Positions 11,130 to 36,767 of a stretch of 36,767 nt of DNA are shown piece by piece. The first letter of the stretch is position 1, and each line of letters begins with the position of its first letter. Both the position numbers and the translations under genes were made by a program. The notes beneath the pieces are model-generated. The model ran no database searches. It was not told the DNA's origin and saw only the letters and a program-made list of their open reading frames with translations. Location: positions 1 through 36,767 of the forward strand of contig CALWMN010000025.1 of the NCBI GenBank assembly GCA_944381935.1. Direction: 5' to 3'. Origin of the DNA: an uncultured Mediterraneibacter sp. Lineage in GTDB: Bacteria > Bacillota > Clostridia > Lachnospirales > Lachnospiraceae.

Positions 11130-11182
11130 TCTTCGTTTCCGGCAGGAAACGGATACTTTTATTTCATCAGGAGGCGAATTTT

Positions 11183-12019: not shown

Positions 12020-12059
12020 AGCTTTCCCAGATTTTATATATCTGCGAAAGCTTTATTTT
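12013..12059. terminator. Bidirectional intrinsic terminator
   Basis: A perfect 14-bp stem, 12013-12026 (AAAATAAAGCTTTC) with 12046-12059, has an inner 5-bp stem (CAGAT 12028-12032 with ATCTG 12040-12044). A/T runs at both ends serve both strands. It ends the AraC gene (whose stop codon lies inside it) and the convergent GH112 gene. Confidence 0.92.
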
Positions 12060-12064
12060 ACCGG

Positions 12065-14227
12065 CTATATTTCATACCAAATGATTTCGTTCGCATCAAG
12101 CTCCAACTCAAAACTCGTGCCGTCCCCTTTATAAACCGTTGTCCTCTGGGGCTCATAGGTATTATTGACAACACAGTACTTCCCGTTTTTCACATATGCA
12201 TGGACCTCTACATTAAAGTTTGAACTGAACCATTTATGCAGATTCTCTTCATCATGTGCCGCCCATATGATAGAGCGGTATAAGATACGGCTGTTCTCGA
12301 AACTGTACGGAAGCCCGCTTATATATACACAGCGTCCCCTGCCAAATTCATTTACAGCCATCTGTACCTCTTTCTCATTCTGAACAAGAATCCGGGTTCC
12401 ATCAAGCGCATAAATATTTTTCTTGCCCTCTCCAAAATCAATTTCCTTTGTGCAGTCCTCTTTTATGAAATGGTCATGTTCATCCCAGTTATATTTATCC
12501 ACATTCAAGGTAAAGCCGGTCTCTTTTTCCACACCCATCACAGATGCAAGCTGGAAGAAACGTCCTTCATGCTGATGGGCAGCCGGCTCTCCCACGCCGA
12601 TAAATCCTCCTCCGTTATAGATAAATCTTTTCACTGCCGTCACAATTTTTTCATCTGTCCAGTTCTCCCCGCCGGTGTACGCCGTATCTGCATCACCGAT
12701 ATTGAGGATGACGTCCGCATCGTCAAGTATCTCAGGATTTTCCCTGATATCGTCAAAACTTATGAAGCGCACATCAAACGGTGCCCCGCTTAGCGCCTCT
12801 GTCACACCGGCATAGGAATAATTTTGCTTATGGTAGATCGCGTGATGGACCATATGATTTCCCCATGCCCTCATCCTGCCCCAGCAGTTCAGAATACACA
12901 CTTTTTTTATGCAGTACGGAGTCGCCCCTTTAATATTGTCATAAAGCGTCCTGAATTCATTACACACGCTCTCCACGTAATCGATAAACTCCGGAAACTG
13001 CATCGCGAGCTTCAGGTATCCGCCGTATCCGATTCTGTCGATCGGTTTCCTCAAGATCGCCCTTCTGGCTGTCACCCAGTTTATTTTCGCTTCTTTCACC
13101 GGATCGCCGCCCTCATGGAAGGTGTCGGGGAAAAAATAGGGCAGAAAACGTCCCTCTGTATATTTCACGCCTTCTATATCGCTGATCAGCCGCAGTGTAG
13201 ACCCGTTTCCTACGCTTCCCACAACCGCATCAAGACCTATGGTCTTAAATTCATCCATAAATGGTTCCATCCCGATCCAGTGGTCCCCAAGGAACATCAT
13301 CGCCTCTTTCCCGCACTCATGTGTAATATCTACCATCTCTTTTGCAAGCTTCGCGACTTCCCTTCTCTGAAAATCCTGGAAGTCCCTGAACTCTTTTGAT
13401 GGAATCCGGTATGTATTGTTCATATATCCCTGGTCAATGATAAATTCCGGGCGGAACCTGTAGCCGACTTCCTTCTCAAACTGCTCCAGGATATACGGGC
13501 TGACCGAGGCAGAATAACCATACCAGTCTACATATTTCTCCCTCGCCAGTTCGTCGAAAAGCAAAGTGAACTGATGGAAGAATGTGGTATAACGGATCAC
13601 GTCTATATGAGGATTATCCGCAATATATTTTCTCAGGCGCTCCATAGAATATTTGTGTGTCTTCGGCTGGCGCACATCAAATGTAATCTGTTTTTCAAAG
13701 TCGGTCCAGCCGTTTGTAACCGCATTGTACATATGGACAGGATCCCACATAATATAAGCAAGAAAGCTTACCGTATAGTCATGAAATTCCACCACATCAG
13801 AGACCGTCACATTTCCGGTCTCACCGCTGTATGCCCAGCGCGATGGCGGGACAACCTCTCCTGTTGTCCTGTCTATCACTTCCCACCATCTTGTTATATC
13901 ATCATGGTCGTTTACCTTCAGCATATCTGGATACAGATGATCCATCAAGTGGATTGTCAGATTATTTTCCGTCGCAGTATAAAACGGCGTCATAATGTAC
14001 ATCTGCTGAATCTCATCAGGGTTTGCTTTCGCCCATGCGTTGTCTTTTCTTGTGGTATAATATGTGGAATACACCTTTGCATCAACATTTTTTAACTCTT
14101 CCGGGTAATCTGTCCCATCGCAGTCACGGATCGCATCCGCGCCCCACCGCTTCAGAATCTCCAACGTTTCCGGAACTACATCCACGTCTGTGGGAATGGT
14201 CACTCTTCCGGTTGATTTCTCTTGCAT
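12065..14227 (-). CDS. lnpA: 1,3-beta-galactosyl-N-acetylhexosamine phosphorylase (GH112)
   Basis: Cytoplasmic phosphorylase of 720 aa that splits galacto-N-biose or lacto-N-biose with phosphate to Gal-1-P and GalNAc or GlcNAc. The whole length follows the GH112 pattern: STGRVTIPTD start, WWEVIDRTTGEVV near 115, TVSFLAYIMWDPVHMYN near 152, a catalytic segment FLGDHWIGMEP (Asp315, matching the position I recall for the catalytic acid of the bifidobacterial enzyme), and YTEGRFLPYFFPDTFHEG. A glutamine-amidotransferase-like middle domain and a small beta domain end the protein. It is preceded by AGAGGAG 9 bases from ATG 14227 and lies 39 bases after the importer permease, so it is co-transcribed with the importer. 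Preference for GNB or LNB cannot be read from sequence. Confidence 0.95.
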   Translation of the reverse strand: MQEKSTGRVTIPTDVDVVPETLEILKRWGADAIRDCDGTDYPEELKNVDAKVYSTYYTTRKDNAWAKANPDEIQQMYIMTPFYTATENNLTIHLMDHLYPDMLKVNDHDDITRWWEVIDRTTGEVVPPSRWAYSGETGNVTVSDVVEFHDYTVSFLAYIMWDPVHMYNAVTNGWTDFEKQITFDVRQPKTHKYSMERLRKYIADNPHIDVIRYTTFFHQFTLLFDELAREKYVDWYGYSASVSPYILEQFEKEVGYRFRPEFIIDQGYMNNTYRIPSKEFRDFQDFQRREVAKLAKEMVDITHECGKEAMMFLGDHWIGMEPFMDEFKTIGLDAVVGSVGNGSTLRLISDIEGVKYTEGRFLPYFFPDTFHEGGDPVKEAKINWVTARRAILRKPIDRIGYGGYLKLAMQFPEFIDYVESVCNEFRTLYDNIKGATPYCIKKVCILNCWGRMRAWGNHMVHHAIYHKQNYSYAGVTEALSGAPFDVRFISFDDIRENPEILDDADVILNIGDADTAYTGGENWTDEKIVTAVKRFIYNGGGFIGVGEPAAHQHEGRFFQLASVMGVEKETGFTLNVDKYNWDEHDHFIKEDCTKEIDFGEGKKNIYALDGTRILVQNEKEVQMAVNEFGRGRCVYISGLPYSFENSRILYRSIIWAAHDEENLHKWFSSNFNVEVHAYVKNGKYCVVNNTYEPQRTTVYKGDGTSFELELDANEIIWYEI

Positions 14228-14266
14228 AATGCTTCTCCTCTCATCATGATATGAAGTTATATGCTG

Positions 14267-15139
14267 TCATCCTTTCACACCGCCGCCGGTAACACCTGCG
14301 ATAATCTTCTCTGAAAGGAAGATATAGAGCAGGAAGGTCGGCAGGAACACAATGATGACTGCTGCAAACAATCCGCCGTAATCTCCCGTGTATCTCATGG
14401 AATTTACGATCTGAAGCAGACCGACGCCGACCGGCATCGTATCTGTGGAACTCGCAAAGATCAATGCCATGAAGAACTCGTTCCATACACTCAGGAAGTT
14501 AAAAATCGTAACCGTGATGATCGCAGGCTGTACAAGGGGAAGCATAATCTTCCAGAATGTCTTTGCCGGCGTACATCCGTCGATCGCCGCCGCCTCCTCA
14601 TAGCTTCGCGACAGGCTGGCGAAAAAGTTCAGCAGATATGTTGTTGTAAATGGCACCCTTATAAAAATATACAGGAGAATCAAAAGAATCCTTCCCCTGA
14701 TATGAAGCTCTGCCGTCAGGGCATAGATCGGCATGATAATCATAACCTCGGGAATACTCATTGCAAGAATCAGGCTGGTCTTGATCGGCTTATTCCCGAG
14801 AAACGTGAATCTGGACAGAACATATGCGGCAGGCGCCGAAATCAGAATCACGCATGTACAGGAGACAACAGAGTAGAGCAGCGAATTCATAAAGTAGCTT
14901 GCCACATCATTCCCAACCCATGCATTCGCATAGTTTTCCCAGTGGAATCCCGATTCAAACTTGAATACTGCCCCGGAAAATATCTCTTTTGTCGTAGAAA
15001 GGCTTGCCCCCAGTATCCAGATCAGAAAAGCCGCAGTAAATACGATCCAGATCAAAACAATAACGTATCCCGGGAGAAGCGAAACTTCTTTTTTCCAGTT
15101 AATCTTTTCTTTATATTTTACCTTCTCTTTTTTACTCAT
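14267..15139 (-). CDS. Sugar ABC importer permease (MalG/MsmG type)
   Basis: Inner-membrane permease of 290 aa with six predicted helices and the EAA loop typical of the second permease of CUT1 importers (EEAAAIDGCTPAKTFWKIMLPLVQPA). It lies between the first permease and GH112 in the same orientation, which points to a galacto-N-biose/lacto-N-biose-type substrate. The ATG has GGAG 7 bases upstream. The window contains no importer ATPase, so a shared MsmK/UgpC-like ATPase elsewhere must energise it. Confidence 0.92.
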   Translation of the reverse strand: MSKKEKVKYKEKINWKKEVSLLPGYVIVLIWIVFTAAFLIWILGASLSTTKEIFSGAVFKFESGFHWENYANAWVGNDVASYFMNSLLYSVVSCTCVILISAPAAYVLSRFTFLGNKPIKTSLILAMSIPEVMIIMPIYALTAELHIRGRILLILLYIFIRVPFTTTYLLNFFASLSRSYEEAAAIDGCTPAKTFWKIMLPLVQPAIITVTIFNFLSVWNEFFMALIFASSTDTMPVGVGLLQIVNSMRYTGDYGGLFAAVIIVFLPTFLLYIFLSEKIIAGVTGGGVKG

Positions 15140-15213
15140 ATTTTCACTCCATTCTCAGGACAATCCTGCAAAGGTATGCAGATATTCATCCTGTCCCACA
15201 CCATATCAGGAGA

Positions 15214-16107
15214 TTAGAACTCCAGATCGTCGTCCTTGATCAGCCTGTTTGTAATGAAATATACAAGAGCAACGAAAATCGCAAGGGTCACGCCAATCGC
15301 TGCACCGGCTCCGGCATCTCTTTGGACATTTCCTTTCGTTCCGAACACAACGTCATAGAGATATACAACCGGAACAACCGTTGACGCCTCAGTTGAGACA
15401 GACGAGAACATTCTTGACCACAGGAAGAATGTAATACAGTTTACACTCCAGAACGTGATATTCGTCTTGAAAATGCTTTTCAGCAACGGCAGGGTAATGC
15501 TTGCGAACTGCTGGACCTTATTTGCCCCGTCAATGGTCGCCGCCTCGTAGAGATCCGATGGAATACGCTCGATCCCACTGATAAAGATCAGCATATAATA
15601 TCCGACTGCGCCAAATACAAAAGCGATGAGCATTGCCCAGAATTTCAGGTCTGTTCCCAGCCAGTTGATCCCCGTAATCCCAAAAAATCCAAGGATTCTG
15701 GTCAGCATACCGTAGTCCTGGTTATACACGTACTGGATCCACATGGTAGCCAGCGCCACGGCACTGATTACGTTCGGCAGGTAGATCGCAGCGCGGAAGA
15801 ACTTCTTAAACCGTATTCCGCTGGTCAGTATTACAGCGAAGAGAAGTCCAATGCTCAGTGTTGCGATGCCCCCGATAACCCAGATCAGCAGCATGTTCTG
15901 CATCGCCCTGATATAAGTAGCACTTCCAAAAAGTCTGAGATAGTTATCAACACCGTTAAATGTCCAGTCAGAAAAATCAGCCGTCACACTTTCGATGCCA
16001 AAAAAGCTCATAACTACTGTCCTGATGACCGGATACAGATACATGATAAGCAGCGTCAGCACACACGGAAGGGTAAAACATATGATAAATCCTTTGTTTT
16101 TTTTCAT
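15214..16107 (-). CDS. Sugar ABC importer permease (MalF/MsmF type)
   Basis: Permease of 297 aa with six predicted helices and an EAA loop (DLYEAATIDGANKVQQFASITLPLL). I chose ATG 16107 (protein begins MKKNKGFIICF) because GAGGTGA lies 8 bases upstream. The longer frame to 16176 would run back through an intergenic hairpin. It is the second gene of the importer operon, 71 bases after the binding-protein stop. Its ribosome binding site can pair with one arm of the upstream hairpin. Confidence 0.9.
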   Translation of the reverse strand: MKKNKGFIICFTLPCVLTLLIMYLYPVIRTVVMSFFGIESVTADFSDWTFNGVDNYLRLFGSATYIRAMQNMLLIWVIGGIATLSIGLLFAVILTSGIRFKKFFRAAIYLPNVISAVALATMWIQYVYNQDYGMLTRILGFFGITGINWLGTDLKFWAMLIAFVFGAVGYYMLIFISGIERIPSDLYEAATIDGANKVQQFASITLPLLKSIFKTNITFWSVNCITFFLWSRMFSSVSTEASTVVPVVYLYDVVFGTKGNVQRDAGAGAAIGVTLAIFVALVYFITNRLIKDDDLEF

Positions 16108-16114
16108 TTCACTT

Positions 16115-16160
16115 GTCACCTCTTCTGACAAAATGAGGTGACGCCATCGGGCGTCACCTC
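16115..16160 (-). promoter_or_regulatory. Intercistronic hairpin with alternative RBS-pairing arm
   Basis: The minus-strand RNA contains an 11-bp perfect stem (GAGGTGACGCC at 16160-16150 with its complement at 16145-16135, loop of 4). The second arm (GTCACCTC, 16142-16135) is also perfectly complementary to GAGGTGAC at 16122-16115, the ribosome binding site of the next permease. The RNA could fold either way. The T-run after the stem is short (ATTTTG), so this is a leaky terminator or a stability/translation switch between binding protein and permease. Confidence 0.65.
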
Positions 16161-16178
16161 CGGTTTTTAAAATCACTC

Positions 16179-17450
16179 CTAGTATAAAGCATCCAGCGCG
16201 GCAGTAACTTCTTCACCACTGCTATACTGTCCCTCATACATTTTGATCACAACATCCTGAATGCTGGACTGAAGGTCTGCATTGGAGTTCAGGCCCATGT
16301 TCCATGTAAGCGGACTGCTGTCCAGAGACTGCAGGACTTCAATTGTACCATTCTGAGATTCCGGTGCTGTGTTATTCGGGTCTGCCGGAATCTGGTTTGC
16401 CGTATCAGCCATCTTCTGGTCATACTCGCCTGTTACAAGGAACATTGCAAAATCAAATGCTGCCTGCTGATTCTCGCTGTAGCTTGTGATCGCGATAGAG
16501 TTTGATCCGGCGTAAGCGCCTGTCGGGTCTGCTCCTCCGTCAACTGCCGGATAGTTGAACATATTCCAGTTCAGCTCTGTGCCGCTGTTCGCGTTTACTT
16601 CTGATGTTACGTAGTTCGCGCAGACAACCATAGCCACGTCTCCGTCGATTCCCATGGAATTCTGGCTTGCCGGGTACTCGTCCGGTGCTCCATCAGCAAG
16701 ATATCCCGCATTGACAAAGTCAACCATATCCTGTGCCGCCGAAACAGCGCCTTCATTGTCACTCCAGCCGCCGTTTGTCGTCAGCTCTGCAACCGCTTCC
16801 TCGCCAATCCATCTGTCAAGATGGTATCCGAAGAAGAACATTGCATAAGCGCTGTCCAGAGCCATCGGCTGATATCCTGCATCAACAAGCTTCTGGCATG
16901 CCGCCAGAAAATCGTCCCATGTTGCCGGTGCTTCTGTGATTCCCGCATCATCAAAGAGATCCTGGTTGTAGAAAATACCTCCTACCTGAGGCTGCTCCGT
17001 AATGCAGCAGAGGAATCCTGCCCACTCTGTCGCCTTATCGTTAAAGATCTGGTAGCTGTTGTCCGCATATCCTGCTGCTTCTGCCATGTCAGTCAGGTCA
17101 GCAACATAGTCCGCATAGTTCAGTGCAATTCTGTTGTAATCTTCCTCGAACAAATCGATCTGCTCCTCCGCCTCAAGGGATGCGGAGATCACTGTGCTGA
17201 TATCACGTCCTCTGAACTCGATATTTACAACTGCACCTGTCTGTTCCTCAAAAGCGTCTGCTGCCTCCTGAAGAACCTTTCCCTGAGGTTCATTGTTGTT
17301 CCACATTGACCAGTATGTAAGTTCCACGCCGTCGTATTCCCCGCCTGAGCCGGAATCTCCGCCTGAGCCGCCGGATCCGTTTCCACATCCAGCCACAAGA
17401 CCTGCTGTCATAGCTGTAACAAGCAGAATACTCATCAGTTTCTTTTTCAT
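16179..17450 (-). CDS. Sugar-binding lipoprotein of ABC importer
   Basis: Extracellular solute-binding protein of 423 aa (SBP_bac_1, CUT1 type). A lipoprotein signal (Lys-rich start, hydrophobic stretch, lipobox GLVAGC with Cys at 22) is followed by a Gly/Ser linker and a two-lobed binding fold. GGAGG lies 7 bases upstream of the ATG. It is the first gene of the operon SBP, permease, permease, GH112, so it most likely binds the galactosyl-HexNAc disaccharide, perhaps in sulfated form. The upstream AT-rich leader (17451-17599) contains a CAATATATTG palindrome (17513-17522); I could not assign a clear promoter there. Confidence 0.92.
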   Translation of the reverse strand: MKKKLMSILLVTAMTAGLVAGCGNGSGGSGGDSGSGGEYDGVELTYWSMWNNNEPQGKVLQEAADAFEEQTGAVVNIEFRGRDISTVISASLEAEEQIDLFEEDYNRIALNYADYVADLTDMAEAAGYADNSYQIFNDKATEWAGFLCCITEQPQVGGIFYNQDLFDDAGITEAPATWDDFLAACQKLVDAGYQPMALDSAYAMFFFGYHLDRWIGEEAVAELTTNGGWSDNEGAVSAAQDMVDFVNAGYLADGAPDEYPASQNSMGIDGDVAMVVCANYVTSEVNANSGTELNWNMFNYPAVDGGADPTGAYAGSNSIAITSYSENQQAAFDFAMFLVTGEYDQKMADTANQIPADPNNTAPESQNGTIEVLQSLDSSPLTWNMGLNSNADLQSSIQDVVIKMYEGQYSSGEEVTAALDALY

Positions 17451-22064: not shown

Positions 22065-23249
22065 TTATCTCCCAGTGCCCCTGCTCATCAGTATGCCGTC
22101 TTCCTGCGGTTCGCTATAAAAATGCTGACGGATTCCATCTACCTTAAATCCCTCTTTCCCGTAAAGCGAGCGCGCCGCCTCATTGCTCTCCCGGACGTCC
22201 AGAAGTACTCTTGCAATATTCCTTTCCCGGCAGAGCTTATCCAGCTTTGATAAAAGGGTATGGGCTACCCCCTGCCTTCTGAACTCCTTCACAGTGGCGA
22301 TCCTCGTAATCTCCGCTTCGTCAGCCGCCGTGTAGGCAAGCAGGTATCCTGCAATACGCCCTGCTTTTCTGGCCGTCAGGCAGATCGTATTTCTCTGCCG
22401 CACCGTCTCAAGGATGGATTTCTCGCTCCAGGCATCCGAAAAGAGCGCATGCTCCATCTCCGCCACCGCAGCCGCGTCCTCCGCCGTCATCCCTTCCACT
22501 TCTGTTCCGGCATTTTTCTCCCGCTCCGCACGTTCTCTCTCCGCCTGTGATACCCGCAGATATTCCGGCTTATGCTCTGCGGCGGTCTCAAAGCGTCCCG
22601 CTTTGTAATAGCGGATTCCGAGAGCACCGACCGCTGCCGCCCTCTGACGGTTCATATAGGACGGGGCAAAAGAATAGGGCACCTTCAGTCCATCCGCCAG
22701 CATGTCCCGGCAGACAGGCACGCCGTCCCCCAGGAAAATGACCGGACGGGCATAGTTGTTGAGCCTCCGTATCAGGTCTTCCACTGATATTGCCATCTGC
22801 ATTTTCAGCACCTGGAACACAGGCTCGGTCAGGTTCTGTCCGCCCTTTTTCCCCGCTTTTGAAGAGAACGTATAAATCCCCGTATAGACCTGCCTGCGCC
22901 TGGCATCCATAATCGGACAGATTAACCCCTCATAGGGGAACACATTGTAGGCAAGAGCATCCACCGTGGGAACATTAATCAATGGCTTATCAAGCGCCAG
23001 CCCCAGTCCTTTGGCAGTGGCTGATCCAATCCGGAGACCGGTAAAGGAGCCGGGGCCTCCCGAAACCGCTATCGCATCAATGTCAGACAGGCTTATGTCC
23101 ACCATCCTTATCATCTCGTCGATCATCGGGAGCAGCGTCTGGGAATGGGTCTTTTTATAGTTCACCGTATATTCCGCAATCGTCTGTGTCTCCTCTACAA
23201 CCGCGACTGTCGCCGTCATGCCGGAGCTGTCTATCGCCAATACTTTCAT
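22065..23249 (-). CDS. tsaB-rimI: TsaB-RimI fusion protein
   Basis: 394-aa fusion. Residues 1 to about 230 are TsaB, the non-catalytic partner of TsaD: MKVLAIDSSGMTATVAVVE start, HSQTLLPMID and AVSGGPGSFTGLRIG. Residues from about 245 are a GNAT acetyltransferase of the RimI type (ribosomal protein S18 N-terminal alanine acetylation), with the acetyl-CoA loop RRQGVAHTLL and LDVRESNEAARSLYGKEGF. A charged linker of about 30 residues joins them. The frame is continuous, so this is a real fusion and not a frameshift. ATG 23249 marks the usual TsaB N-terminus with AGGA 5 bases upstream. Similar fusions are known in Firmicutes. Confidence 0.92.
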   Translation of the reverse strand: MKVLAIDSSGMTATVAVVEETQTIAEYTVNYKKTHSQTLLPMIDEMIRMVDISLSDIDAIAVSGGPGSFTGLRIGSATAKGLGLALDKPLINVPTVDALAYNVFPYEGLICPIMDARRRQVYTGIYTFSSKAGKKGGQNLTEPVFQVLKMQMAISVEDLIRRLNNYARPVIFLGDGVPVCRDMLADGLKVPYSFAPSYMNRQRAAAVGALGIRYYKAGRFETAAEHKPEYLRVSQAERERAEREKNAGTEVEGMTAEDAAAVAEMEHALFSDAWSEKSILETVRQRNTICLTARKAGRIAGYLLAYTAADEAEITRIATVKEFRRQGVAHTLLSKLDKLCRERNIARVLLDVRESNEAARSLYGKEGFKVDGIRQHFYSEPQEDGILMSRGTGR

Positions 23250-23325
23250 AAATCCTGCCGTTCCTTTCATACTGGTAAACGCCGGCGCAAAGCCTGTGCC
23301 TTGCGTCCGGCGCAAAAGCGCTGAT

Positions 23326-23754
23326 CTATTCCAGCTCTTCAATCGTTATCCTTCTGTAGTCGAATCCTCTCTCCAGATCTTTTTCAATCAGGACTTCCGT
23401 CCGCTTTGCAGGCAGGATTTCTTTGATCAGATCCGCCCACTCTATCAGGGAGACCCCGTCTCCCATTACATAATCGTCAAACCCGACTTCCTCCATTTCC
23501 TCCACGTCACTGATCCGGTAGACATCAAAATGGCAGAACGGAAGCCGTCCCCCGTCATATACCTGGACAATCGTAAATGTAGGGCTGCTGACCGGCTCTT
23601 CTATCCCGAGCCCCTTTGCAAGACCCTGTGTAAATACAGTCTTCCCGACTCCCAGATCCCCTGTCAGGGTGAATACCTGCCCGGGATAAGCTTCCTCACC
23701 GAGCTTCATCCCTACACGGAATGTCTCTTTTGGATTATGGGTTTCTATCAGCAT
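23326..23754 (-). CDS. tsaE: tRNA t6A biosynthesis ATPase TsaE
   Basis: P-loop ATPase of 142 aa required for t6A37 formation with TsaB and TsaD. Walker A is GDLGVGKT at 32-39, followed by SSPTFTIVQVY and the HFDVYRI motif typical of the family. Usual length. ATG 23754 has GGGAGG 9 bases upstream. It is followed by tsaB-rimI after 76 bases. Confidence 0.95.
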   Translation of the reverse strand: MLIETHNPKETFRVGMKLGEEAYPGQVFTLTGDLGVGKTVFTQGLAKGLGIEEPVSSPTFTIVQVYDGGRLPFCHFDVYRISDVEEMEEVGFDDYVMGDGVSLIEWADLIKEILPAKRTEVLIEKDLERGFDYRRITIEELE

Positions 23755-27836: not shown

Positions 27837-28736
27837 TTACAGATTTTTCTCCCTTTCCAGAAAATCCAGGACATCCTTTGCATACGGGATTGAGTCAACC
27901 GCCCCCTTTTTCGTCACAGCAAGCGCAGCAGCGGCCGAACTCCTCTCCAGAATATCTTCCGGCAGCATTTCCTGCAGAATGCCGGCAATGAAATACCCCG
28001 TATAGGTGTCTCCCGCCGCCGTTGTATCCACCGCCTTAACCGAAAAGCTTTCCCTGGCGATTCTGCTACCGCCGCACTGGTAAACAGACCCCTTCTCTCC
28101 AAGTGTCAGGACGACGTCTGCCTTCGGATATTTTTCTTTCATTTTATCCAGTATCTCCTCGGGGCCCCTCTTTCCTGTGAGCTGCTCCCCCTCCACTTCG
28201 TTGATAAGAAAAAGGGAGACCTTCCCCAGGTCGCAGATTTCCAGGTTATGGTCGCAGGGGGACGGATTCAGGACGATCTTCATCCCTCTCTTGTATGCCC
28301 GTTCTATGATATAATCCAGGCAGTTTATCTCGTTTTGGAGAAGGATCATATCTCCCGGAGAAAAGTCCAAAATCACCTCGTCAATATGCTCTTTTTTCTG
28401 TTCTCTGTTTGATCCCCCATAGAGAAGGATACTGTTCTGCCCGTCTTGATCCACCTGGATCACCGTATGCCCGCTTGGTCCCTCCGTTTTCCGGACATGC
28501 CGGATATCGACATGGTCCCTGCCGCAAATCTTAAGGAAGTCATCCCCGTCCTCTCCTACTGTCCCCGCCTGACAGACACAGGCACCTGCCCGTGCGAGTG
28601 CAATCGACTGGTTAAACCCCTTGCCGCCCAGAAACTTCTGCCTCTGCCGGGAAGACTGTGTTTCTCCCGGAAGCAGAATGTGGTCGACCGCGTATACATA
28701 ATCATAATTCAGGGAACCAAAATTCAAAACTTTCAT
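27837..28736 (-). CDS. PfkB/ribokinase-family sugar kinase
   Basis: Sugar kinase of 299 aa. It has an N-terminal sugar-binding region (NFGSLNYDYVY), GGKG at 37-40 with Asn42, TLGEKG at 211-216 for ATP, and an intact anion hole/catalytic motif DTTAAGDT with Asp243. It should phosphorylate the sugar, or the product of the aldolase encoded just upstream. ATG 28736 has AAGGTG 9 bases upstream; a GTG at 28769 abuts the previous stop but has no ribosome site. It is the last gene of the minus-strand operon. Ribose or a 2-keto-3-deoxy acid are both possible substrates. Confidence 0.88.
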   Translation of the reverse strand: MKVLNFGSLNYDYVYAVDHILLPGETQSSRQRQKFLGGKGFNQSIALARAGACVCQAGTVGEDGDDFLKICGRDHVDIRHVRKTEGPSGHTVIQVDQDGQNSILLYGGSNREQKKEHIDEVILDFSPGDMILLQNEINCLDYIIERAYKRGMKIVLNPSPCDHNLEICDLGKVSLFLINEVEGEQLTGKRGPEEILDKMKEKYPKADVVLTLGEKGSVYQCGGSRIARESFSVKAVDTTAAGDTYTGYFIAGILQEMLPEDILERSSAAAALAVTKKGAVDSIPYAKDVLDFLEREKNL

Positions 28737-28769
28737 TTCTCTTTTCACCTTTTCTCTCCTCCCAGGCAC

Positions 28770-29705
28770 TTAGGATACTTCCATCTCTATCCCCGCATCT
28801 GAGCAGATCTCTTCTAATTCTGCCTTCAGCTTTTCCTTCTTGCTGTCCTGGATATCAAGCTGCGGCCTTCTCATATGACCCGCATCGATTCCCCTAAGCT
28901 TCAGCCCTTCCTTGAAATACGACATATTGCAGCCGCCTTTCAGGGCGTCCACAAATCTGACGCACACCTTCTGTAACCGCATTGCCTCTTCCAGCCTTTT
29001 CTCCTGATAAGCCTTATATGCCGCGATAAACGGTTCAGGGAATACTCCTGCCACCCCCGATACCGTCCCTCTGCACCCTGCCGCAAGCATGGATATCATC
29101 GCCCTGTCACAGCCGTGAAGGACAGAGAAGCCGTCTCCGATATTTATATAGTCGATCGTTCTGTTGATATCGGGCCAGCTATATTTTAATCCAACCACGT
29201 TTGCACTTCTTTGCCTGATTCTCTTCACCGTCTCAACCGGCAGGTCATTGGAGGCACACTGCGGGATATTATACAGATATACCGGGAAATCGCTCACGCT
29301 GCCGGCCACCGCCACAAAATATTCCTCCAATTCCCTGTTATTCTGCCTGAAAAACACAGGCGTCACCACCCCCGCGCCGTCTGCCCCGGCAGCCCTGGCG
29401 TGCTGCAGCAGCGTGACCGTATCTTCCTGGTTCATGCACCCGCAGTGGACAAACGTAGTCGCCCTGCCGCCTGCCGTTTTGATCACAGTTTCCGCAACCT
29501 TCATCCTCTCTTCCAAACTAAGCCGGAGCATTTCCCCCGTTGTTCCGCATGGATAAAGGCAGTCAACCCCCTTTTCTATCAGCATGTCTGTCAATTGAGC
29601 CAATCCTTCATAGTAAACCTGCCCATTCTGTAAAAACGGCGTTACCAGCGGGATTGTTATACCATATAGTTGTTTCACCCGGATGCCCCCTTCCTTGTTT
29701 TTCAT
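28770..29705 (-). CDS. DapA/NanA-family Schiff-base aldolase
   Basis: Class I lyase of the dihydrodipicolinate synthase/N-acetylneuraminate lyase family, 311 aa. GTTGE is at 54-58, catalytic Tyr145 is in VYLYNIPQ, and Schiff-base Lys174 is in VVGLKYSWPD. Location in a sugar operon with a kinase suggests cleavage of a keto-sugar acid to pyruvate plus an aldehyde, not lysine synthesis. Start is uncertain: ATG 29705 has AGAGG 7 bases upstream, while GTG 29678 after AAGGGGG would fit the usual family N-terminus better. It lies directly after an intrinsic terminator, so its expression depends on read-through or a private promoter. Confidence 0.85.
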   Translation of the reverse strand: MKNKEGGIRVKQLYGITIPLVTPFLQNGQVYYEGLAQLTDMLIEKGVDCLYPCGTTGEMLRLSLEERMKVAETVIKTAGGRATTFVHCGCMNQEDTVTLLQHARAAGADGAGVVTPVFFRQNNRELEEYFVAVAGSVSDFPVYLYNIPQCASNDLPVETVKRIRQRSANVVGLKYSWPDINRTIDYINIGDGFSVLHGCDRAMISMLAAGCRGTVSGVAGVFPEPFIAAYKAYQEKRLEEAMRLQKVCVRFVDALKGGCNMSYFKEGLKLRGIDAGHMRRPQLDIQDSKKEKLKAELEEICSDAGIEMEVS

Positions 29706-29720
29706 TTCTATTCCTCTTCT

Positions 29721-29750
29721 AAAAAAAGGCACCGCCATATCAGCGGTGCC
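29721..29750 (-). terminator. Intrinsic terminator inside the sugar operon
   Basis: Minus strand: perfect 8-bp stem GGCACCGC (29750-29743) with GCGGTGCC (29735-29728), 7-base loop, followed by seven T (29727-29721). It lies between the binding protein and the aldolase gene and should make the downstream aldolase and kinase less expressed than the importer. Confidence 0.9.
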
Positions 29751-29851: not shown

Positions 29852-31222
29852 TCACTCGAGCCCGTTCGATTCATTAAATCTGGTAATCGCCTCGTTCGTA
29901 TCGTTTACTATGGTTTCAAGCGCTTCATCCGTCGTATAGGATTCATCATCCAGGAGCTTTTGAATTTCGCTCGGAATGATGGCACGCATTTCATTCGTAC
30001 ATCCGATCAGAGCCAGAAGCCCTGCCTCCGAAGTCTCATCCAGCTGATGGAGGATGGACTCGAATCCCGGATTCTCTTCCAAATACGCCTGGTAAGTTTC
30101 CGTCTCCTCAGCACTCAGCCGCAGAGGGAGATAACCTGTGGTGCTCACCCATTCTGCCTGAATTTCGGGATCTGTACAGTATTTGATGAACTCCCATGCT
30201 GCGTCCGCTTTTTCATCATTTCCATTTCCGTTGTTGATGATCCAAAGTGCTCCGCCGCCGTTTGACCCTGTAAAGACATCGCCCTCATTGAATTTCGGAA
30301 CACAGCGCTGCCCAACCGTAAACGTCCCGTCAGCTCCGTCCTGCACATCCCTGTAGATTCCACATGTGGAGATCAGCATCGCAACATTGCCTGCCCCAAA
30401 TTCCTTCTTAGCTTCCGCAGTTCCGGAAAGTCCGCCGCCGTATGTCACCGCGAACGGATGGGAGGAAAAGTCACGCCAAAATTCCAGAATTTCTTTCCCC
30501 AGTCCGTTTTCGTCAATAATAAGCTTAGTCGCTATACCATTACGGCCGTTCTCGTGATCTGTCAGGTATCCGCCTTTCATGGAAACAAACTCTTCAAACA
30601 GCCATGCATCATTATCCAGGCACACGCCGTACTGGCACAGTCCTGCATCCGCAACTTTTTCCGCAGCCACAAGAACATCGTCGAATGTCTCAAGATCCGT
30701 CTCAGGATCAACCCCTGCTGCCTCCAGCGCTTCAATGTTGTATGTAATGGCAGGTATTGATACGTTAAACGGCATACCGTATAAAGTATCGTCCACTGTA
30801 TACCAGTTCAGGATCATCTGGTTGTAATCGGACAGGTCATAGCTTTCCTTGTCGATATAGTCCTGGACTGACAGGAAATAATCGCTGTGGATCATCTGGA
30901 AGCAGCCCTGCTCATAGATCTGCATAACATCCGGCCTCTGGCCTGCCGGAGTCGTCTTCAGCTTTGCAAACGCATCGTCGTATGACCCCTGATATTCAAT
31001 ATTCACATGCACGTCATCCTGCGATTCATTGAAGGATGCCACGATATTTTCCAGCGCTTCCCCATTGCGGTTCCCCATAGAATGCCAGAATGTAATTTCA
31101 ACGGGACTGCCGTCTTCTGTCCCTGACGTATCTTCTGAACCCGAGGAACCACATCCTGCAAGCATCAGCATTGCCATTGCAAATACAGCCAGGCAGCTCA
31201 CCCATTTTCTTATTTTTTTCAT
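29852..31222 (-). CDS. Sugar-binding lipoprotein of second ABC importer
   Basis: Extracellular binding protein of 456 aa (SBP_bac_1, CUT1 type). It has a lipoprotein signal with lipobox LMLAGC, then an acidic Ser/Thr linker and a binding fold starting VEITFWHSMGNRNGEAL, which resembles glycerol-3-phosphate/oligosaccharide binding proteins (UgpB-like). ATG 31222 has GGAGG 7 bases upstream. It follows the two permeases of the same operon. The ligand is unknown. Confidence 0.92.
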   Translation of the reverse strand: MKKIRKWVSCLAVFAMAMLMLAGCGSSGSEDTSGTEDGSPVEITFWHSMGNRNGEALENIVASFNESQDDVHVNIEYQGSYDDAFAKLKTTPAGQRPDVMQIYEQGCFQMIHSDYFLSVQDYIDKESYDLSDYNQMILNWYTVDDTLYGMPFNVSIPAITYNIEALEAAGVDPETDLETFDDVLVAAEKVADAGLCQYGVCLDNDAWLFEEFVSMKGGYLTDHENGRNGIATKLIIDENGLGKEILEFWRDFSSHPFAVTYGGGLSGTAEAKKEFGAGNVAMLISTCGIYRDVQDGADGTFTVGQRCVPKFNEGDVFTGSNGGGALWIINNGNGNDEKADAAWEFIKYCTDPEIQAEWVSTTGYLPLRLSAEETETYQAYLEENPGFESILHQLDETSEAGLLALIGCTNEMRAIIPSEIQKLLDDESYTTDEALETIVNDTNEAITRFNESNGLE

Positions 31223-31300
31223 AAGTTTCCTCCTTATCATTTTTATCTCATCGCCAAGTCACATTTTGAAGAGAAGTTATCCGTCAGTATGCCAATACAT

Positions 31301-32131
31301 CTATCCCTTTACCGCGCTTCCGACCATTCCTTTGATCAGGTATTTCTGCCCGATTATAAAAATCAGAAGAACCGGGATAAGCGTGAACATCGCACCTGCC
31401 GTTGCATTTCCGTAGTTAACCGCCTCCGCATCAAGAAGGATTCCCATACCGATCTGAATGGTTCTCATCTCCGTCGTATTCGTCACGAATAAGGGCCACA
31501 TATACTGGTTATACGTTGTAACAAACACATAGACTCCCAATGACGCTATAATCGGCTTGGAGATCGGCATGACAATGGACAGGAGGAACCTGAAATCCCC
31601 ACAGCCGTCAATGTAAGCCGCCTGCTTCAGCTCAATCGGTATCGTCAGGAAGAACTGCCGCAGCAAGAACACGCCCATTCCCGCCGCCAGATATGGCAGG
31701 ACCAAGGCCAGATAAGTATCTACAAGCTTCATGTCACACATGGTGCGGTAATTCGAGATAATGATCGTCTCCGCCGGAATCATCATCGTTAAAAGTACAG
31801 TGCCAAACAGAAGCCTCTTGCCAGGAAATTCAAAAAAGGCAAATGCATATGCTGCCAGGCTGGATGTAATAATCTGTGCAACAATTACCACAGCACATAC
31901 AATCAGGCTGTTTTTCAGGAAAGACAAAAGCGGAAAGCGCTCCAGCACTGCAAGGTAGTTTTCAAGGTTCAGTCCGTCCGGAAAAATCTTCGGCGGGTAT
32001 GCCGACACTTCAGACGGCTGCATAAAGCTGACCATCAGCGCATATACGATCGGACTGATAATCAGAAACCCGACGGCAAGTTTTATAATAAATCCCAGAT
32101 ATTTCAGCAATCGTTTCGTTTTCTTTGTCAA
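31301..32131 (-). CDS. Sugar ABC importer permease (UgpE/MalG type)
   Basis: Permease of 276 aa with six predicted helices and an EAA-type loop (ELKQAAYIDGCGDFRFLLSIVMPISKP). I place the start at TTG 32131, which overlaps the previous permease stop as TTGA (4 bases), with AAGGACGG about 10 bases upstream. A longer reading frame to 32218 would overlap the previous gene by 91 bases and adds a non-family, Cys-rich N-terminus. Confidence 0.85.
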   Translation of the reverse strand: MTKKTKRLLKYLGFIIKLAVGFLIISPIVYALMVSFMQPSEVSAYPPKIFPDGLNLENYLAVLERFPLLSFLKNSLIVCAVVIVAQIITSSLAAYAFAFFEFPGKRLLFGTVLLTMMIPAETIIISNYRTMCDMKLVDTYLALVLPYLAAGMGVFLLRQFFLTIPIELKQAAYIDGCGDFRFLLSIVMPISKPIIASLGVYVFVTTYNQYMWPLFVTNTTEMRTIQIGMGILLDAEAVNYGNATAGAMFTLIPVLLIFIIGQKYLIKGMVGSAVKG

Positions 32132-33006
32132 TTGTAATGCACCGTCCTTTTTTCTAAAGCAAACTGAATCCTGGTCACGAAGAAAATAATGACAAACAGA
32201 ATCAGCGACAATACACATGCATAGTCGAAACGCCCTTCCAAAAATGCCGATCTGTAAATGTTATAAACCAGAATATCTGTTGTATAAGCCGGTCCGCCGA
32301 GCGTCAGGAGCTTTATCTGCGCGAACGCCTGGAAGGAGACAACGATATCGAGAAAGATCACAAAGAAAAGCTGTCCCGATGCCACCGGTATCACGATGTG
32401 GAACAGTCTCCTTAAGTATCCTGCCCCATCCAGTTTTGCACTTTCAATCAGCTCATCCGGCACATTTCTCAGTCCAGTGACAAGGAAAATAAAGTTTGCC
32501 CCCAGATTCATCCAGACCGTTACCCCTGCCACTGCAAACAGGGTATATTTCGTCGAATCCAGCCATTGCAGGTCTGTGTGCAGAATATAATTCAGGATTC
32601 CGCTGCCCGACGAAAAGATCAAAAACCAGATCGCAGCAGCCGGGGCGGACGCCACCGCCATAGGAAGAGAGTACATCGTCTCATAGAGCCTTGATCCCCT
32701 CATCCTTTCATTTGCCATACATGCGAGAATGAAACTGACCACAAACGTAGGCACAAAAATCAATACTGCAAACTTAAGGCTTACAAACAGGCTGTTCCAG
32801 AATGAATCTGATTGAAATATCGCCACAAAGTTCTGAATACCATAAAACTTGACAGCCTCCCCGCTTGAATTTGTCAGATGGAACGACAGGTAAATCGTCC
32901 TGACAAACGGGAAAAACACAAAGGCTATAAATATGACAAAACAGGGGATCAGCATCAGGTATGGGGTAATGTAAACCTTTCCCCACTTTTTCGTATGTAT
33001 GCTCAT
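32128..33006 (-). CDS. Sugar ABC importer permease (UgpA/MalF type)
   Basis: Permease of 292 aa with six predicted helices and an EAA loop (DELIESAKLDGAGYLRRLFHIVIPVA). ATG 33006 has AAGGAG 9 bases upstream, which lies within the last codons of the FAD oxidoreductase gene. The two genes are 4 bases apart, so they are one operon. As with the other importer here, no ATPase is encoded nearby. Confidence 0.92.
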   Translation of the reverse strand: MSIHTKKWGKVYITPYLMLIPCFVIFIAFVFFPFVRTIYLSFHLTNSSGEAVKFYGIQNFVAIFQSDSFWNSLFVSLKFAVLIFVPTFVVSFILACMANERMRGSRLYETMYSLPMAVASAPAAAIWFLIFSSGSGILNYILHTDLQWLDSTKYTLFAVAGVTVWMNLGANFIFLVTGLRNVPDELIESAKLDGAGYLRRLFHIVIPVASGQLFFVIFLDIVVSFQAFAQIKLLTLGGPAYTTDILVYNIYRSAFLEGRFDYACVLSLILFVIIFFVTRIQFALEKRTVHYN

Positions 33007-33010
33007 ACTC

Positions 33011-34381
33011 TCAACTCCTTGCAAAATATACGTTCTGTTTTTCCAGCTCTTCCCGGAGCTCTTTGTATGGAAGCTGACGGATCTCCACGCCTTTCTGGGC
33101 AGCCAGTGCAGCTGCCACTCCCGCGCCCTGCCCCATGCTCATGCAGTTGGATATGCTCCTCGGAGACCCGATCGCGTCCGTCTCAACTGCGATATTTCTT
33201 CCCGCTACTATAACGCCGTCAATCGCTTTTGGAAGCATGCAGCGCAGCGGAATGTCATATGCGGTTCCCGGCTCCATTCTCCTGAACTCGATATCTTTTC
33301 CGTCAGGGATATGGTATCCCAGAGGCGCCTGATAACTGCATACGGCATCCGGGAATTTCGTGGCGTTCATGATGATATCTGCCGTAAGTTTAATGTCTCC
33401 CACCACTTTTCTGGATTCCCTGACTCCTACCGCCGGAGCCGTGGCAGAAATATAAGCTTTTTCAAACCCCGGAATATATTTGTTAAACACTTCCATCGCC
33501 TGGTAAAGCCGGATACGGCTCGTGTGCTCTGCCCGGCTCAGGTCTTTTGCATCGGTTCCGTCGATCGCGATCTCACCAGTCATATTGAGCACCATCTCGC
33601 CTGGATTCGGGGTAGAATAGAACAGGATGAACCAGTCTCTTAAATACTCCAGTTCCTCCGGCAGCTCTATCCCTTCCAGTTCCTCATGAAGACGGTAATT
33701 ATATATTCCCGCATGGGGCAGCCCGCCAAGGTACTTTTCACCTTTCCAGAGTTCCGGCCTTGCCGCATAATACTCTCTGACTTTTTCCACATCGACCCCG
33801 CCCATCTTGGCAATCAGGGATACCGGGTGCAGCCTCTCCTTTGAAAGGAGTTCAAACTCAGCGCCTGCAAATTCCAGAAGATCTGAGTCTCCGGTGCAGT
33901 CTACGAATTGTTTTCCCCACGCAACCTGCCTTCCGGACTTATTCTCCATTATAATGCCTGTGACTTTATTCCCCTCCTTGATCACATCCGCAACCATTGT
34001 GAGATAAAGCACTTCCAGATTCTTCTCTTCCTCAAACATCTGCGTGATCACGTATTTTGCTCGCTCACTGTCATACAGGATGTATGCGTCTTTCGCATAA
34101 TCCGGATTTTCTACGCCGCCGATTTCTTCCACTCTTTTAAAATACTCGTACGGAATCCCCTTGACCACCTGATGGACCTGATCCCCAAATGTCCATGCCG
34201 TGTTCATAAATCCCCCGAGCTGTCCTCCCAGAGAACCAAGCCGTTCCACCACCAACGTCCTGGCCCCGGCGCGGGCTGACGCGATACCGGCAATCATGCC
34301 GGCCGTCCCCCCGCCTGCTACAATAACATCATATTCCCCGTATACAGGAAGCTCCTTTGCCGGTTCAACATATGTGTTCAT
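33011..34381 (-). CDS. FAD-dependent oxidoreductase (FAD_oxidored family)
   Basis: Flavoprotein of 456 aa. The N-terminal Rossmann motif VIVAGGGTAGMIAGIASARAG (about 20-40) ends in the ribose-binding Glu of LVVE. QFVDCTGDSDLLEFAGA near 165 is the second FAD-contact segment typical of the FAD_oxidored (PF12831) family, and GVIVAGRNIAVETDAIGSPRS with MGQGAGVAAALA at the C-terminus completes the FAD site. No signal peptide, so it is cytoplasmic. It is the first gene of the operon; the family is found in sugar loci but the substrate is often unknown. It might oxidise the imported sugar before the aldolase acts. ATG 34381 has GGAGG 9 bases upstream. Confidence 0.85.
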   Translation of the reverse strand: MNTYVEPAKELPVYGEYDVIVAGGGTAGMIAGIASARAGARTLVVERLGSLGGQLGGFMNTAWTFGDQVHQVVKGIPYEYFKRVEEIGGVENPDYAKDAYILYDSERAKYVITQMFEEEKNLEVLYLTMVADVIKEGNKVTGIIMENKSGRQVAWGKQFVDCTGDSDLLEFAGAEFELLSKERLHPVSLIAKMGGVDVEKVREYYAARPELWKGEKYLGGLPHAGIYNYRLHEELEGIELPEELEYLRDWFILFYSTPNPGEMVLNMTGEIAIDGTDAKDLSRAEHTSRIRLYQAMEVFNKYIPGFEKAYISATAPAVGVRESRKVVGDIKLTADIIMNATKFPDAVCSYQAPLGYHIPDGKDIEFRRMEPGTAYDIPLRCMLPKAIDGVIVAGRNIAVETDAIGSPRSISNCMSMGQGAGVAAALAAQKGVEIRQLPYKELREELEKQNVYFARS

Positions 34382-34418
34382 ATTCCTGTTCCTCCATTTC
34401 CATACGTCCTCTTTTTAC

Positions 34419-34430
34419 GAAACATGTTTC
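34419..34430. promoter_or_regulatory. Palindrome, candidate LacI-type operator
   Basis: GAAACATGTTTC is a perfect 12-bp palindrome about 20 bases downstream of the predicted minus-strand -10 and 38 bases before the FAD oxidoreductase start, a roadblock position for a repressor. Which protein binds is inferred. Confidence 0.5.
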
Positions 34431-34449
34431 CTAAACCTTTTTCGCTTTT

Positions 34450-34647: not shown

Positions 34648-34676
34648 TTGACATTTTCCCAATTTATTCCTATACT
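34648..34676 (+). promoter_or_regulatory. Promoter of the LacI-kinase fusion gene
   Basis: Near-consensus housekeeping promoter on the plus strand: -35 TTGACA (34648-34653), 17-bp spacer, -10 TATACT (34671-34676). The start codon is 40 bases downstream. Confidence 0.8.
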
Positions 34677-34715: not shown

Positions 34716-36653
34716 ATGAATATAAAGGATATCGCCGCCGCCGCAAACGTCTCTGTTTCCACCGTTTCAAAAGTCCTCAACCACAAAGACCACGATATAA
34801 GCGAGACGACCAAAAAGCGGGTCCTTGCCGTAATAAAAGAAAATAATTATTCCCCTTACTCCAATATCAAAGATGTTTCCCCTTTTAAAACCTTTCTTGT
34901 AGCATTGATGATCGATCCTCCGCTGATCGCGGAACCTTTTGTTTCAACACTGGAAAACTATTTTGCAAGGGACGGATACAGTCTCATGATCTGCCCTTTG
35001 TCAGCAGATGGATCATCCATAAAAAAACAGTTGAATATCCTGGGTGCCAAACATGTGGACGGAATTATTTTTTATACCTTTTCGGAGGAGCTGGTTAAAC
35101 TGTTCACTTCAGCTAACGCCGGCAAGATTCCTTCTGTATATCTGTTCCCGACGCCGGTGGCGAATCATGCCACAATCTGCTGCAATCCAGCCGACCTTTC
35201 CCATCAGGCAGTACAGCTTTTTATCGAAAAGGGGCATACCAAGATCGGATGTCTGATCGACTCAGAAACAGGTGATCACGAATTGATCAAAAAAGGGTAC
35301 CTGGAGGCATTATTTGAACATTCCCTTACTCAGGATAACGCGCTTATCATCGACAGCTCACAAAGCTCTTCGCTCCAGGTCCAGCTCAATTCGCTGCTGG
35401 ACAGCGAAATCACTGCTTTATACTGTCAAAATTTACCCCTGGCAACCACTGCCTGTTCGTATTTTGACAAGAAGAGCATCCCTGTGCCGGACAGAATATC
35501 GGTTGCCGCAGGAGAAGCCGGAATCATTTCCTCTCCCGCCTCTCCCCCGGTCTGCCTGACCTTTTTTCCCTGGGATGAAATCTGCAAAAGCACTGCGCAT
35601 CAATTGATCTCACAGATGGAAACAAGGAAACGCAAGATTGCGAACCTCTCTATCCCTGTCCGTATTTCAGGGCAGGATTTTATCCGTATACCATACACGG
35701 ATATAGTAAAGATCTTAGTTATCGGAAACATTGACATGGATACCATTATCTCAACGGACCATCTCCCCCGTTCAGGCGATCTGATCACTGCCGGCAGCAT
35801 TGTCACTGCCCCGGGCGGAAAGGGCGTAAACCAGGCGGTTGCATCCTCGCTCCTTGGCGGCGACGTATCCATTATCGGACGTGTCGGCGACGATATTGAG
35901 GGGCATGCTATTATCGACACTCTTTTAGAAAACAATATAAAATCCGACGGCGTATATATCGATACGATGTGTTCTACCGGAAAAACCTTTATCAACTCTA
36001 CACAGGGCGAACACAGCGCAGTCGTTGCTTACCCCGGCGCCAATATGCATCTTGACATGCAGCAGCTAAGAGATCTGGAGCATCTGTTCCACAATATCGG
36101 TATGTGCCTGATCACAACAGAAATACCGCAGGAAATCATCACCTTTGTGATAAATAAATGTTTTGAATCGGGAATCAAGATTTTCTTGAAACCGTCCCTG
36201 AACACCGGCGTAGATTCTGCCCTCCTTGGCAAGATCGACTATCTCATCCCAAATGCCCAGGAGCTGAATCAGCTTGTCCCGGACGGTCGGACGGTTCCTG
36301 AAAAAGCAGAAAGGCTTTTTCAGCTATGCAGCAACAACATAATCGTCACACTGGGAGACAAAGGATGTTATGCGAAAAACAGCGAGATAGAAAGCTATTT
36401 CCCGGCTGCCAATTTCTCTCCTGTGGACACGACCGGCGCTGCTAATTGCTTTATTGGAGCGCTTGCCGTCTCTCTGGGAAAGGGCAACACGCTTCCCTAT
36501 TCGATCTGCTATGCTACATATGCCGCCGGCTTCAGCGTAACGCAGACCGGAGTACAGACCTCTTTCCCGACCAGAAACCAGCTCATGGCATATCAGGATG
36601 ATATCCACAGAATGTATATGAATTTCCTGAAATCTCAGCGTATAACAGAATAG
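34716..36653 (+). CDS. LacI-type regulator fused to ribokinase-like domain (probable pseudokinase)
   Basis: 645-aa fusion. Residues 1-50 are a LacI helix-turn-helix with hinge (MNIKDIAAAANVSVSTVSKV). Residues about 57-325 are a periplasmic-binding-protein-like effector domain. Residues about 331-630 are a full PfkB/ribokinase domain: VIGNIDMD at 335-342, PGGKGVNQAV from 366, Glu469, NAQEL at 513-517 and TLGDKG at 545-550. The usual catalytic DTTGAGD reads DTTGAAN at 571-577, so Asn577 replaces the catalytic Asp and Ala576 a Gly of the anion hole. Sugar-binding Asp342, GGKG and Asn372 are kept. It probably binds sugar, perhaps with nucleotide, without phosphorylating it, giving the repressor a second sensor. 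AGGTGAT lies 8 bases before the ATG. It is divergent from the sugar operon, which encodes its own intact PfkB kinase. Residual kinase activity cannot be excluded. Confidence 0.9.
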   Translation: MNIKDIAAAANVSVSTVSKVLNHKDHDISETTKKRVLAVIKENNYSPYSNIKDVSPFKTFLVALMIDPPLIAEPFVSTLENYFARDGYSLMICPLSADGSSIKKQLNILGAKHVDGIIFYTFSEELVKLFTSANAGKIPSVYLFPTPVANHATICCNPADLSHQAVQLFIEKGHTKIGCLIDSETGDHELIKKGYLEALFEHSLTQDNALIIDSSQSSSLQVQLNSLLDSEITALYCQNLPLATTACSYFDKKSIPVPDRISVAAGEAGIISSPASPPVCLTFFPWDEICKSTAHQLISQMETRKRKIANLSIPVRISGQDFIRIPYTDIVKILVIGNIDMDTIISTDHLPRSGDLITAGSIVTAPGGKGVNQAVASSLLGGDVSIIGRVGDDIEGHAIIDTLLENNIKSDGVYIDTMCSTGKTFINSTQGEHSAVVAYPGANMHLDMQQLRDLEHLFHNIGMCLITTEIPQEIITFVINKCFESGIKIFLKPSLNTGVDSALLGKIDYLIPNAQELNQLVPDGRTVPEKAERLFQLCSNNIIVTLGDKGCYAKNSEIESYFPAANFSPVDTTGAANCFIGALAVSLGKGNTLPYSICYATYAAGFSVTQTGVQTSFPTRNQLMAYQDDIHRMYMNFLKSQRITE

Positions 36654-36691: not shown

Positions 36692-36767
36692 TGATATGCT
36701 CCCCTTTAGGTAGACAGTTGAAATAATAAAACTGTTTATCTGGAGGGGAGTTTTATTATGCCTAGAG
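36692..36767 (+). mobile_element. Left end of an insertion sequence, IS3-family-like (IS150 group)
   Basis: The end TGATATGCTCCCCTTTAGG-TAGACAG resembles the terminal repeats of the IS150 group (TG...CCCC...TTAGACA). An internal, partly complementary copy follows at about 36730-36750 (AACTGTTTATCTGGAGGGGAG), forming the long imperfect stem usual at these ends, just before the transposase start. The element continues past the window, so family and completeness are not certain. The left boundary could shift by a few bases. Confidence 0.65.
36758..36767 (+). CDS. Start of probable transposase OrfA (partial)
   Basis: ATG 36758 (Met-Pro-Arg) lies 7 bases after GGAGGGGAG inside the insertion-element left end. 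Only three codons are present, so the product is inferred from position alone. Confidence 0.45.

Follow-up and report, generated by a model that had tools for sequence, protein, structure and literature searches.

What does a regulator sense when its LacI repressor part continues in frame into a ribokinase that has lost its catalytic aspartate? The gene that raises this question lies near the end of the window analysed here, the whole contig of 36,767 nucleotides from an uncultured Mediterraneibacter sp. A preliminary description of the sequence had proposed a regulator with two sugar sensors, one of them a dead kinase. Comparison with relatives leads to a partly different answer: the missing Asp marks one lineage of a larger family of LacI-derived regulators, in which the ribokinase fold is the probable sensor.

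The fusion protein and its relatives

In the ORF list the fusion gene is a single unbroken frame at 34716-36653 of the forward strand, stop codon included, and encodes 645 amino acids. Along this strand it comprises a LacI-type helix-turn-helix at residues 2-47 (34719-34856; Pfam PF00356, 1.3e-16), a hinge segment YSNIKDVSPF at residues 48-57 (34857-34886) that on sequence comparison does not carry the PN..ARSL hinge-helix signature, a periplasmic-binding-like LacI core at residues 58-318 (34887-35669; Peripla_BP_3, PF13377, over 166-316, 3.4e-14) and a PfkB/ribokinase domain at residues 332-619 (35709-36572; PF00294, 9e-49; ribokinase structures 6znx, 1vm7 and 1gqt). The single ORF and its three Pfam domains confirm the earlier view of a LacI protein running in frame into a PfkB fold. 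Counted along a phmmer alignment to 1gqt, D342 falls on D16 of Escherichia coli RbsK, G368-K369 on G42-K43, E469 on E143 and T545 on T223; the roles used here for numbered RbsK residues other than Asp255 and its motif are those we assume for them. The domain has the sugar-site D16, GGK and E143 positions and carries Asp at the N14 position; the sugar-binding Asp342 and the GGKG had already been recognized in the preliminary description, whose coordinates and motifs are correct. The same alignment places the motif DTTGAAN at residues 571-577 (36426-36446), with N577 on D255 and A576 on G254. The catalytic Asp is indeed lost, as had been noticed before, the base position being Asn and the preceding anion-hole glycine position Ala. 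Passages of PMC10339645 give Asp255 of ribokinase as the catalytic base and the surrounding motif as the anion hole, and a related anion-hole motif, DTNGAG, is given for adenosine kinase in part of PMC6086891. A sequencing error is an unlikely source of the Asn, as the same residue, with codon AAT or AAC, occurs in four other proteins, two of them 50% and two 36-37% identical to that of the window. A chance fusion was rejected, both the architecture and the Asn being common to relatives.

Exact copies of the last 76 bases of the window (36692-36767) are present in contigs C7 and C2 of its genome, and for this reason the window contig probably breaks within a repeated element that starts just after the fusion gene. 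The contig holds a second domain fusion at 22065-23342, one ORF in which a TsaD-family (perhaps TsaB-like) domain is followed by a GNAT acetyltransferase domain. Further upstream, at 9669-17450, genes for a sulfatase-family protein, a lacto-N-biose phosphorylase and a solute-binding protein lie close together, a set that suggests the use of host glycans.

The LacI-ribokinase fusion is not unique to the window but common in related bacteria. Of 397 genomes from the same family, with only three candidates scored in each, at least 31 contained a full-length match free of stops, counting the genome of the window itself; the 12 matches found in that genome (3.04 Mb, 54 contigs) included no second fusion. 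The 59 non-redundant fusions compared comprise that of the window and those from searches of the family (28), two genera (10), the order (13), the class (two) and genome contigs at large (five); they were set against 57 separate PfkB proteins that these loci also encode. The partial fusion L038 and the near-duplicates L095_f0, L055_k2 and L117_k1 were excluded, and the full-length matches G283 and G408 and an Enterococcus raffinosus fusion (L175) stand outside the 59. Six PfkB rows (L056_k0, L064_k11 and two each from L065 and L066) were omitted from the pocket-residue table; the Gly and Asp counts use all 57. Controls for the LacI half were 17 unfused RbsR proteins whose genes directly precede a separate rbsK (three near-duplicate pairs among them) and 20 other LacI proteins, six rows from the window's own genome, wrong ORFs among them, having been omitted. 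When the family search was repeated with a profile of the Asn proteins no further Asn member appeared, and matches at E <= 1e-150 came only from genomes already in the set. A viral origin was rejected, a single scan of viral contigs having given no relative. The E. raffinosus fusion (L175 5956-7899), located on a megaplasmid, is of the Asp type (DSTGASDAF) and has a nucleoside hydrolase gene as well as transporter-like ORFs in its vicinity.

Motif and pocket residues of the kinase domain

Asp occupies the base position in 54 of the 59 fusions and in all 57 separate PfkB proteins, and its loss was rejected as a hallmark of the fusion. The five Asn proteins are those of the window, L011 (G085), L012 (Dorea sp. 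D27), L058 (a Blautia MAG) and L062 (a Lachnospiraceae MAG). The motif columns were excluded when a tree of 111 kinase domains was built, and in this tree the five make up one clade, with support 100/99 and a single D to N change, whose sister group consists of 14 fusions with GAAD or GGAD. The preliminary description had asked whether homologues conserve the Asn, and had held a prevalence of Asp against its own reading. Family-wide Asp does prevail, but within the clade the Asn is conserved in five of five; because it is fixed in so well supported a group, it can be regarded as a real derived state.

The Gly before the Asp is present in 6/59 fusions versus 56/57 separate PfkB proteins. The fusions have 6 Gly, 40 Ala, 7 Ser, 3 Cys and 3 other residues at this position, six changes in the Gly state are needed on the kinase tree, and a Paenibacillus fusion (L060) keeps the full DTTGAGD motif. 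It seems that catalysis was impaired at an early stage of the family and came to an end in the Asn lineage, and we infer that it is abolished in the kinase domain of the window. As six fusions keep the Gly and 54 the Asp, many relatives might retain activity, and together with the intact motif of L060 these residues could speak for a trigger enzyme that still phosphorylates slowly. However, the window protein and its four relatives have no base, and a separate, intact-motif PfkB gene is found in all 14 sister-group regions (11 with DTTAAGD or DSTAAGD, three with DTTGAGD), a separate PfkB gene lying within 9.5 kb in 13 of them, so that catalysis in that group does not depend on the fused domain. 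We consider retained phosphorylation highly improbable as the function of this protein.

A non-catalytic kinase domain could also be a passive module for stability or dimerization that senses nothing, and the loss of catalytic residues would agree with such a role. Yet D16, G42 and K43 of the sugar pocket are each present in 59/59 fusions and E143 in 57/59, and on the nucleotide side T223 and E190 are each found in 57/59, although the 48 fusions that were aligned with that of the window are only 27-50% identical to it; the kinase domain is, besides, more conserved than the LacI core. A passive module is for these reasons very unlikely. The kinase domain of the Asn clade is under purifying selection, with pN 0.069 and pS 0.682, the latter near saturation, between L011 and L012. 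At the same time the sugar site of this clade has drifted: the N14 position, which reads D, N, T, S and N across the five proteins, is Asn in 2/5, N46 and G44 are each retained in 3/5, and L058 and L062 also have GGKA. The Arg or Lys of TRxG has become Gln or His in 5/5 members, compared with Arg in 50/54 Asp fusions and Arg or Lys in 49/51 kinases.

Aberrant motifs were seen outside the Asn clade as well. A deeper branch of fusions, L063 (10001-11896) and L107, has the wrecked motif SHTAG[VI]DCF, with GGKAS where GGKG is usual, but keeps the Asp; judging from these residues, its kinase domain has degenerated independently. At L056 (G085:C1 2618896-2620808) a LacI gene adjoins a separate PfkB gene with the motif DMSGVTDFF; the two may be a split regulator whose kinase partner is dead.

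The LacI half and the operator-like site

In LacI, the classic example of allostery, a signal passes from the sugar pocket through the hinge helix to DNA. We take the usual effector Arg (R..GY) to be LacI R197/PurR R190 and the usual effector Asp, the first of GFDD, to be LacI D274/PurR D275. The Arg is present in one of 59 fusions, the Paenibacillus L060, versus 17/17 unfused RbsR proteins encoded beside rbsK and 18/20 other LacI proteins; the Asp in 0/59 versus 17/17 and 17/20, so that both are frequent, not universal, among LacI proteins. In the window they are replaced by I191 and E267. The hinge is likewise altered. The window protein reads PYSNIKDV, which does not fit the PN..A..L signature, and Leu or Met at the signature's Leu position, which corresponds to LacI Leu56 of the hinge helix, occurs in 5/59 fusions versus 15/17 two-gene RbsR and 16/20 other LacI proteins; the signature Asn occurs in none of the 59, versus 13/17 two-gene RbsR proteins. 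The fusion core is on average less conserved than both the helix-turn-helix and the kinase domain. Core identity is below PfkB identity in 1707/1711 fusion pairs, versus 86/120 comparisons among 16 two-gene pairs, and at a PfkB identity of 0.40-0.65 the mean core identity is 0.28 for fusions versus 0.39 for two-gene pairs.

These differences bear directly on the two sensors of the preliminary description, in which the LacI core would still bind a sugar and the dead kinase would add a second sugar or nucleotide-state input. The core has been retained in full and is detected by Peripla_BP_3; moreover, the effectors of LacI proteins are chemically varied, so that the missing Arg and Asp are no proof of an empty core pocket. 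Against this stand the absence of both residues from all fusions bar the one Arg, the largely lost hinge signature and the lower conservation of the core relative to unfused RbsR at similar kinase identity, and a second sensor in the core is unlikely. The two-sensor proposal was probably half wrong: its dead kinase used as a sensor probably stands, as does the intact-motif kinase in the divergent operon, and its LacI sensor probably does not. A regulator with the kinase fold as its single sensor would account better for these data, and the simplest reading is that sensing would have moved from the LacI core to the kinase domain.

Concerning the DNA target, an operator-like palindrome, TTACGAAA-CATG-TTTCCTAA, was located by pattern match at 34415-34434 and begins 34 bp upstream of the first start codon of the divergent operon (34381). 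The palindrome TTMSGAAA-N4-TTTCSKAA recurs upstream of the fusions in 35 of the 58 regions with flanking sequence (one of the 59 had none) at up to two mismatches and a spacer of 4, compared with 0.15 in shuffles; no such site was found in the other 23. Because these regions were also the source of the pattern, the comparison of spacers is the cleaner control: spacers of 3 and 5 gave 9 and 8 of 58, above shuffles, and spacers of 0-2 and 6-8 gave 0 or 1. The copy in the window is exact and the sole exact match of the 20-base pattern in its genome, where two further places match at one mismatch. With up to three mismatches allowed, a related pattern of 23 bases matched the genome only at 34415-34434, and 100 shuffles of the window gave 0 matches. 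Two Asn members fit the operator pattern poorly, L058 with three mismatches and L062 with no site at up to three. The spacer-4 site, at up to two mismatches, was absent from all 18 upstream regions of two-gene RbsR, eight of which carry the CpG-centred AAACGTTT (shuffles 0.25), versus 1/58 for the fusions. The hinge Leu of LacI reads the CpG centre of its operator, and the loss of the CpG-centred site would fit the loss of that Leu. A promoter-like TTGACA-17-TATACT for the fusion gene was found at 34648-34676 of the forward strand by consensus match only, in a region where three promoter-like sites compare with a shuffle mean of 2.0. One of the places at one mismatch, G000:C3 149976-149995 (L186), has a CpG centre, lies about 200 bp from a LacI-type gene (C3:148911-149777) and may belong to that neighbouring regulator.

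Operon context, proposed mechanism and known systems

On the reverse strand, the divergent operon that faces the fusion gene starts with an FAD-dependent oxidoreductase (33011-34381; Pfam PF12831), followed by two ABC transporter permeases (32128-33024 and 31301-32218; both PF00528), a UgpB-like solute-binding protein (29852-31240; PF13416, with the NCBIfam UgpB model below its cut-off), a DHDPS/DapA-family lyase (28770-29738; PF00701) and a separate PfkB kinase recognized by Pfam and motif (27837-28769). The motif of the latter, DTTAAGD within DTTAAGDTY, is intact, which bears out the normal kinase noted earlier in this operon. The context also bears on the reading of the kinase domain as mainly a sensor of nucleotide (ATP/ADP) or K+, through which the regulator would follow the energy state and not a sugar. 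The nucleotide-side positions are kept about as well as those of the sugar side, in the Asn clade even a little better, as such a sensor would have them. Nevertheless, an inducer from the pathway fits better than energy sensing, because D16, G42 and K43 of the sugar site are retained in all 59 fusions and the regulator adjoins one catabolic operon bearing the only exact site of the genome; an energy sensor is quite unlikely.

The neighbourhoods separate the Asn clade from the rest of the family. After omission of L097, L109, L113, L120 and L122, for which flanking sequence was lacking, 5 Asn and 49 Asp fusions could be counted. A DHDPS/DapA-family lyase is encoded in the facing divergent operon of 5/5 Asn fusions and nearby in only 1/49 Asp fusions (L017), with a Fisher p of 1.9e-6 that is not phylogenetically independent and overstates the association, since this may be one inherited event. 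A nucleoside hydrolase or PnrA-like protein is encoded near 0/5 Asn versus 29/49 Asp fusions; such genes lie near 10 of the 14 sister-group fusions, and 10/49 Asp regions have no nucleoside or ribose marker gene at all. The rest of the divergent operon varies between the loci of the Asn clade. Those of L085, L057 and L062 hold the DapA-family lyase with a ribose-type ABC transporter, an M24 peptidase and a 2-hydroxyacid dehydrogenase, L085 and L062 adding the dihydroxyacetone kinase DhaK, and that of L058 has a TRAP-type binding protein. The best explanation of these neighbourhoods is that the Asn clade was re-targeted, having left nucleoside or ribose salvage for a DapA-family lyase operon, and a change of ligand from ribose to a compound of the lyase pathway is likely to lie behind its altered sugar pocket.

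With moderate confidence, we propose that the window encodes a LacI-derived repressor whose sensor has moved into a non-catalytic ribokinase fold, and that its lineage, with D255N, responds to a ligand of the DapA-lyase pathway. An RbsR-like LacI protein would have become fused to the ribokinase encoded next door, after which its core would have lost effector residues and hinge signature and would now serve mainly as a dimer scaffold. The kinase fold, with its conserved sugar and nucleotide pockets, would have become the effector domain, its catalysis first impaired by loss of the anion-hole glycine and then abolished in the lineage of the window by D255N. The dimer would act as a local repressor on the palindrome in front of the divergent operon and would release DNA once the kinase domain has closed around its ligand. 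This is probably a compound of the DapA-lyase pathway, either a sugar or a sugar acid, to which ATP or ADP may be added. For the family as a whole we would give about even chances to the complete series of events: a widespread rbsR-rbsK fusion, loss of sensing and transmission through LacI core and hinge, an operator changed from a CpG centre to a 4-bp spacer, a progressively disabled ribokinase as effector domain and, in the Asn clade, a ligand changed from ribose or nucleoside to a compound of the lyase pathway.

A natural family appears to have discarded the LacI pocket and hinge, with an enzyme fold plugged in as the sensor. Its intermediates form a testable series, from the two-gene pair through a fusion with intact kinase motif (the Paenibacillus L060) and fusions without the glycine to fusions without the base, and suggest a domain swap for the construction of sugar biosensors. 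For annotation, these genes should be taken neither for ribokinases nor for ordinary ribose repressors. Full-text literature searches of open-access papers, aimed at such fusions or at regulators derived from kinases, gave no title on LacI-ribokinase fusions among those listed, and the words "fused" and "ribokinase" are absent from PMC4052901, on LacI regulons.

Among known systems, the RbsR and LacI-GalR repressors share with the fusion a LacI helix-turn-helix and periplasmic-binding-like core and a position beside a catabolic operon, and RbsR is the best-scoring NCBIfam LacI-type model for the window protein, though below its cut-off. Unlike RbsR, the fusion has no PN..ARSL hinge or effector Arg and Asp, bears a C-terminal kinase domain and is preceded by an operator-like site with a 4-bp spacer instead of the CpG-centred one. 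By sequence, E. coli RbsK (1GQT) corresponds to the whole kinase domain and to most pocket positions, whereas the window protein differs from it in G254 to A, D255 to N and N14 to D and in being joined to a repressor. In the rbsR-rbsK pairs, as in Acetoanaerobium noterae (L176), both components occur in this order ahead of ABC transporter genes, and such an adjacent pair is the likely source of the fusion; the pairs differ in being two proteins, with an intact DTTAAGD kinase and canonical LacI features. In the ROK-family repressors NagC and Mlc a helix-turn-helix is also joined to a sugar-kinase fold turned sensor; that fold, however, is unrelated to the one in the fusion, and no LacI core lies in between. 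Yeast Gal3, which binds ATP and galactose and has no activity, and the plant PfkB-type proteins FLN1 and FLN2 are treated in sections of PMC3409070 as kinase-like proteins in the control of transcription. In contrast to the fusion, Gal3 and the FLNs are eukaryotic and are not fused to a DNA-binding repressor.
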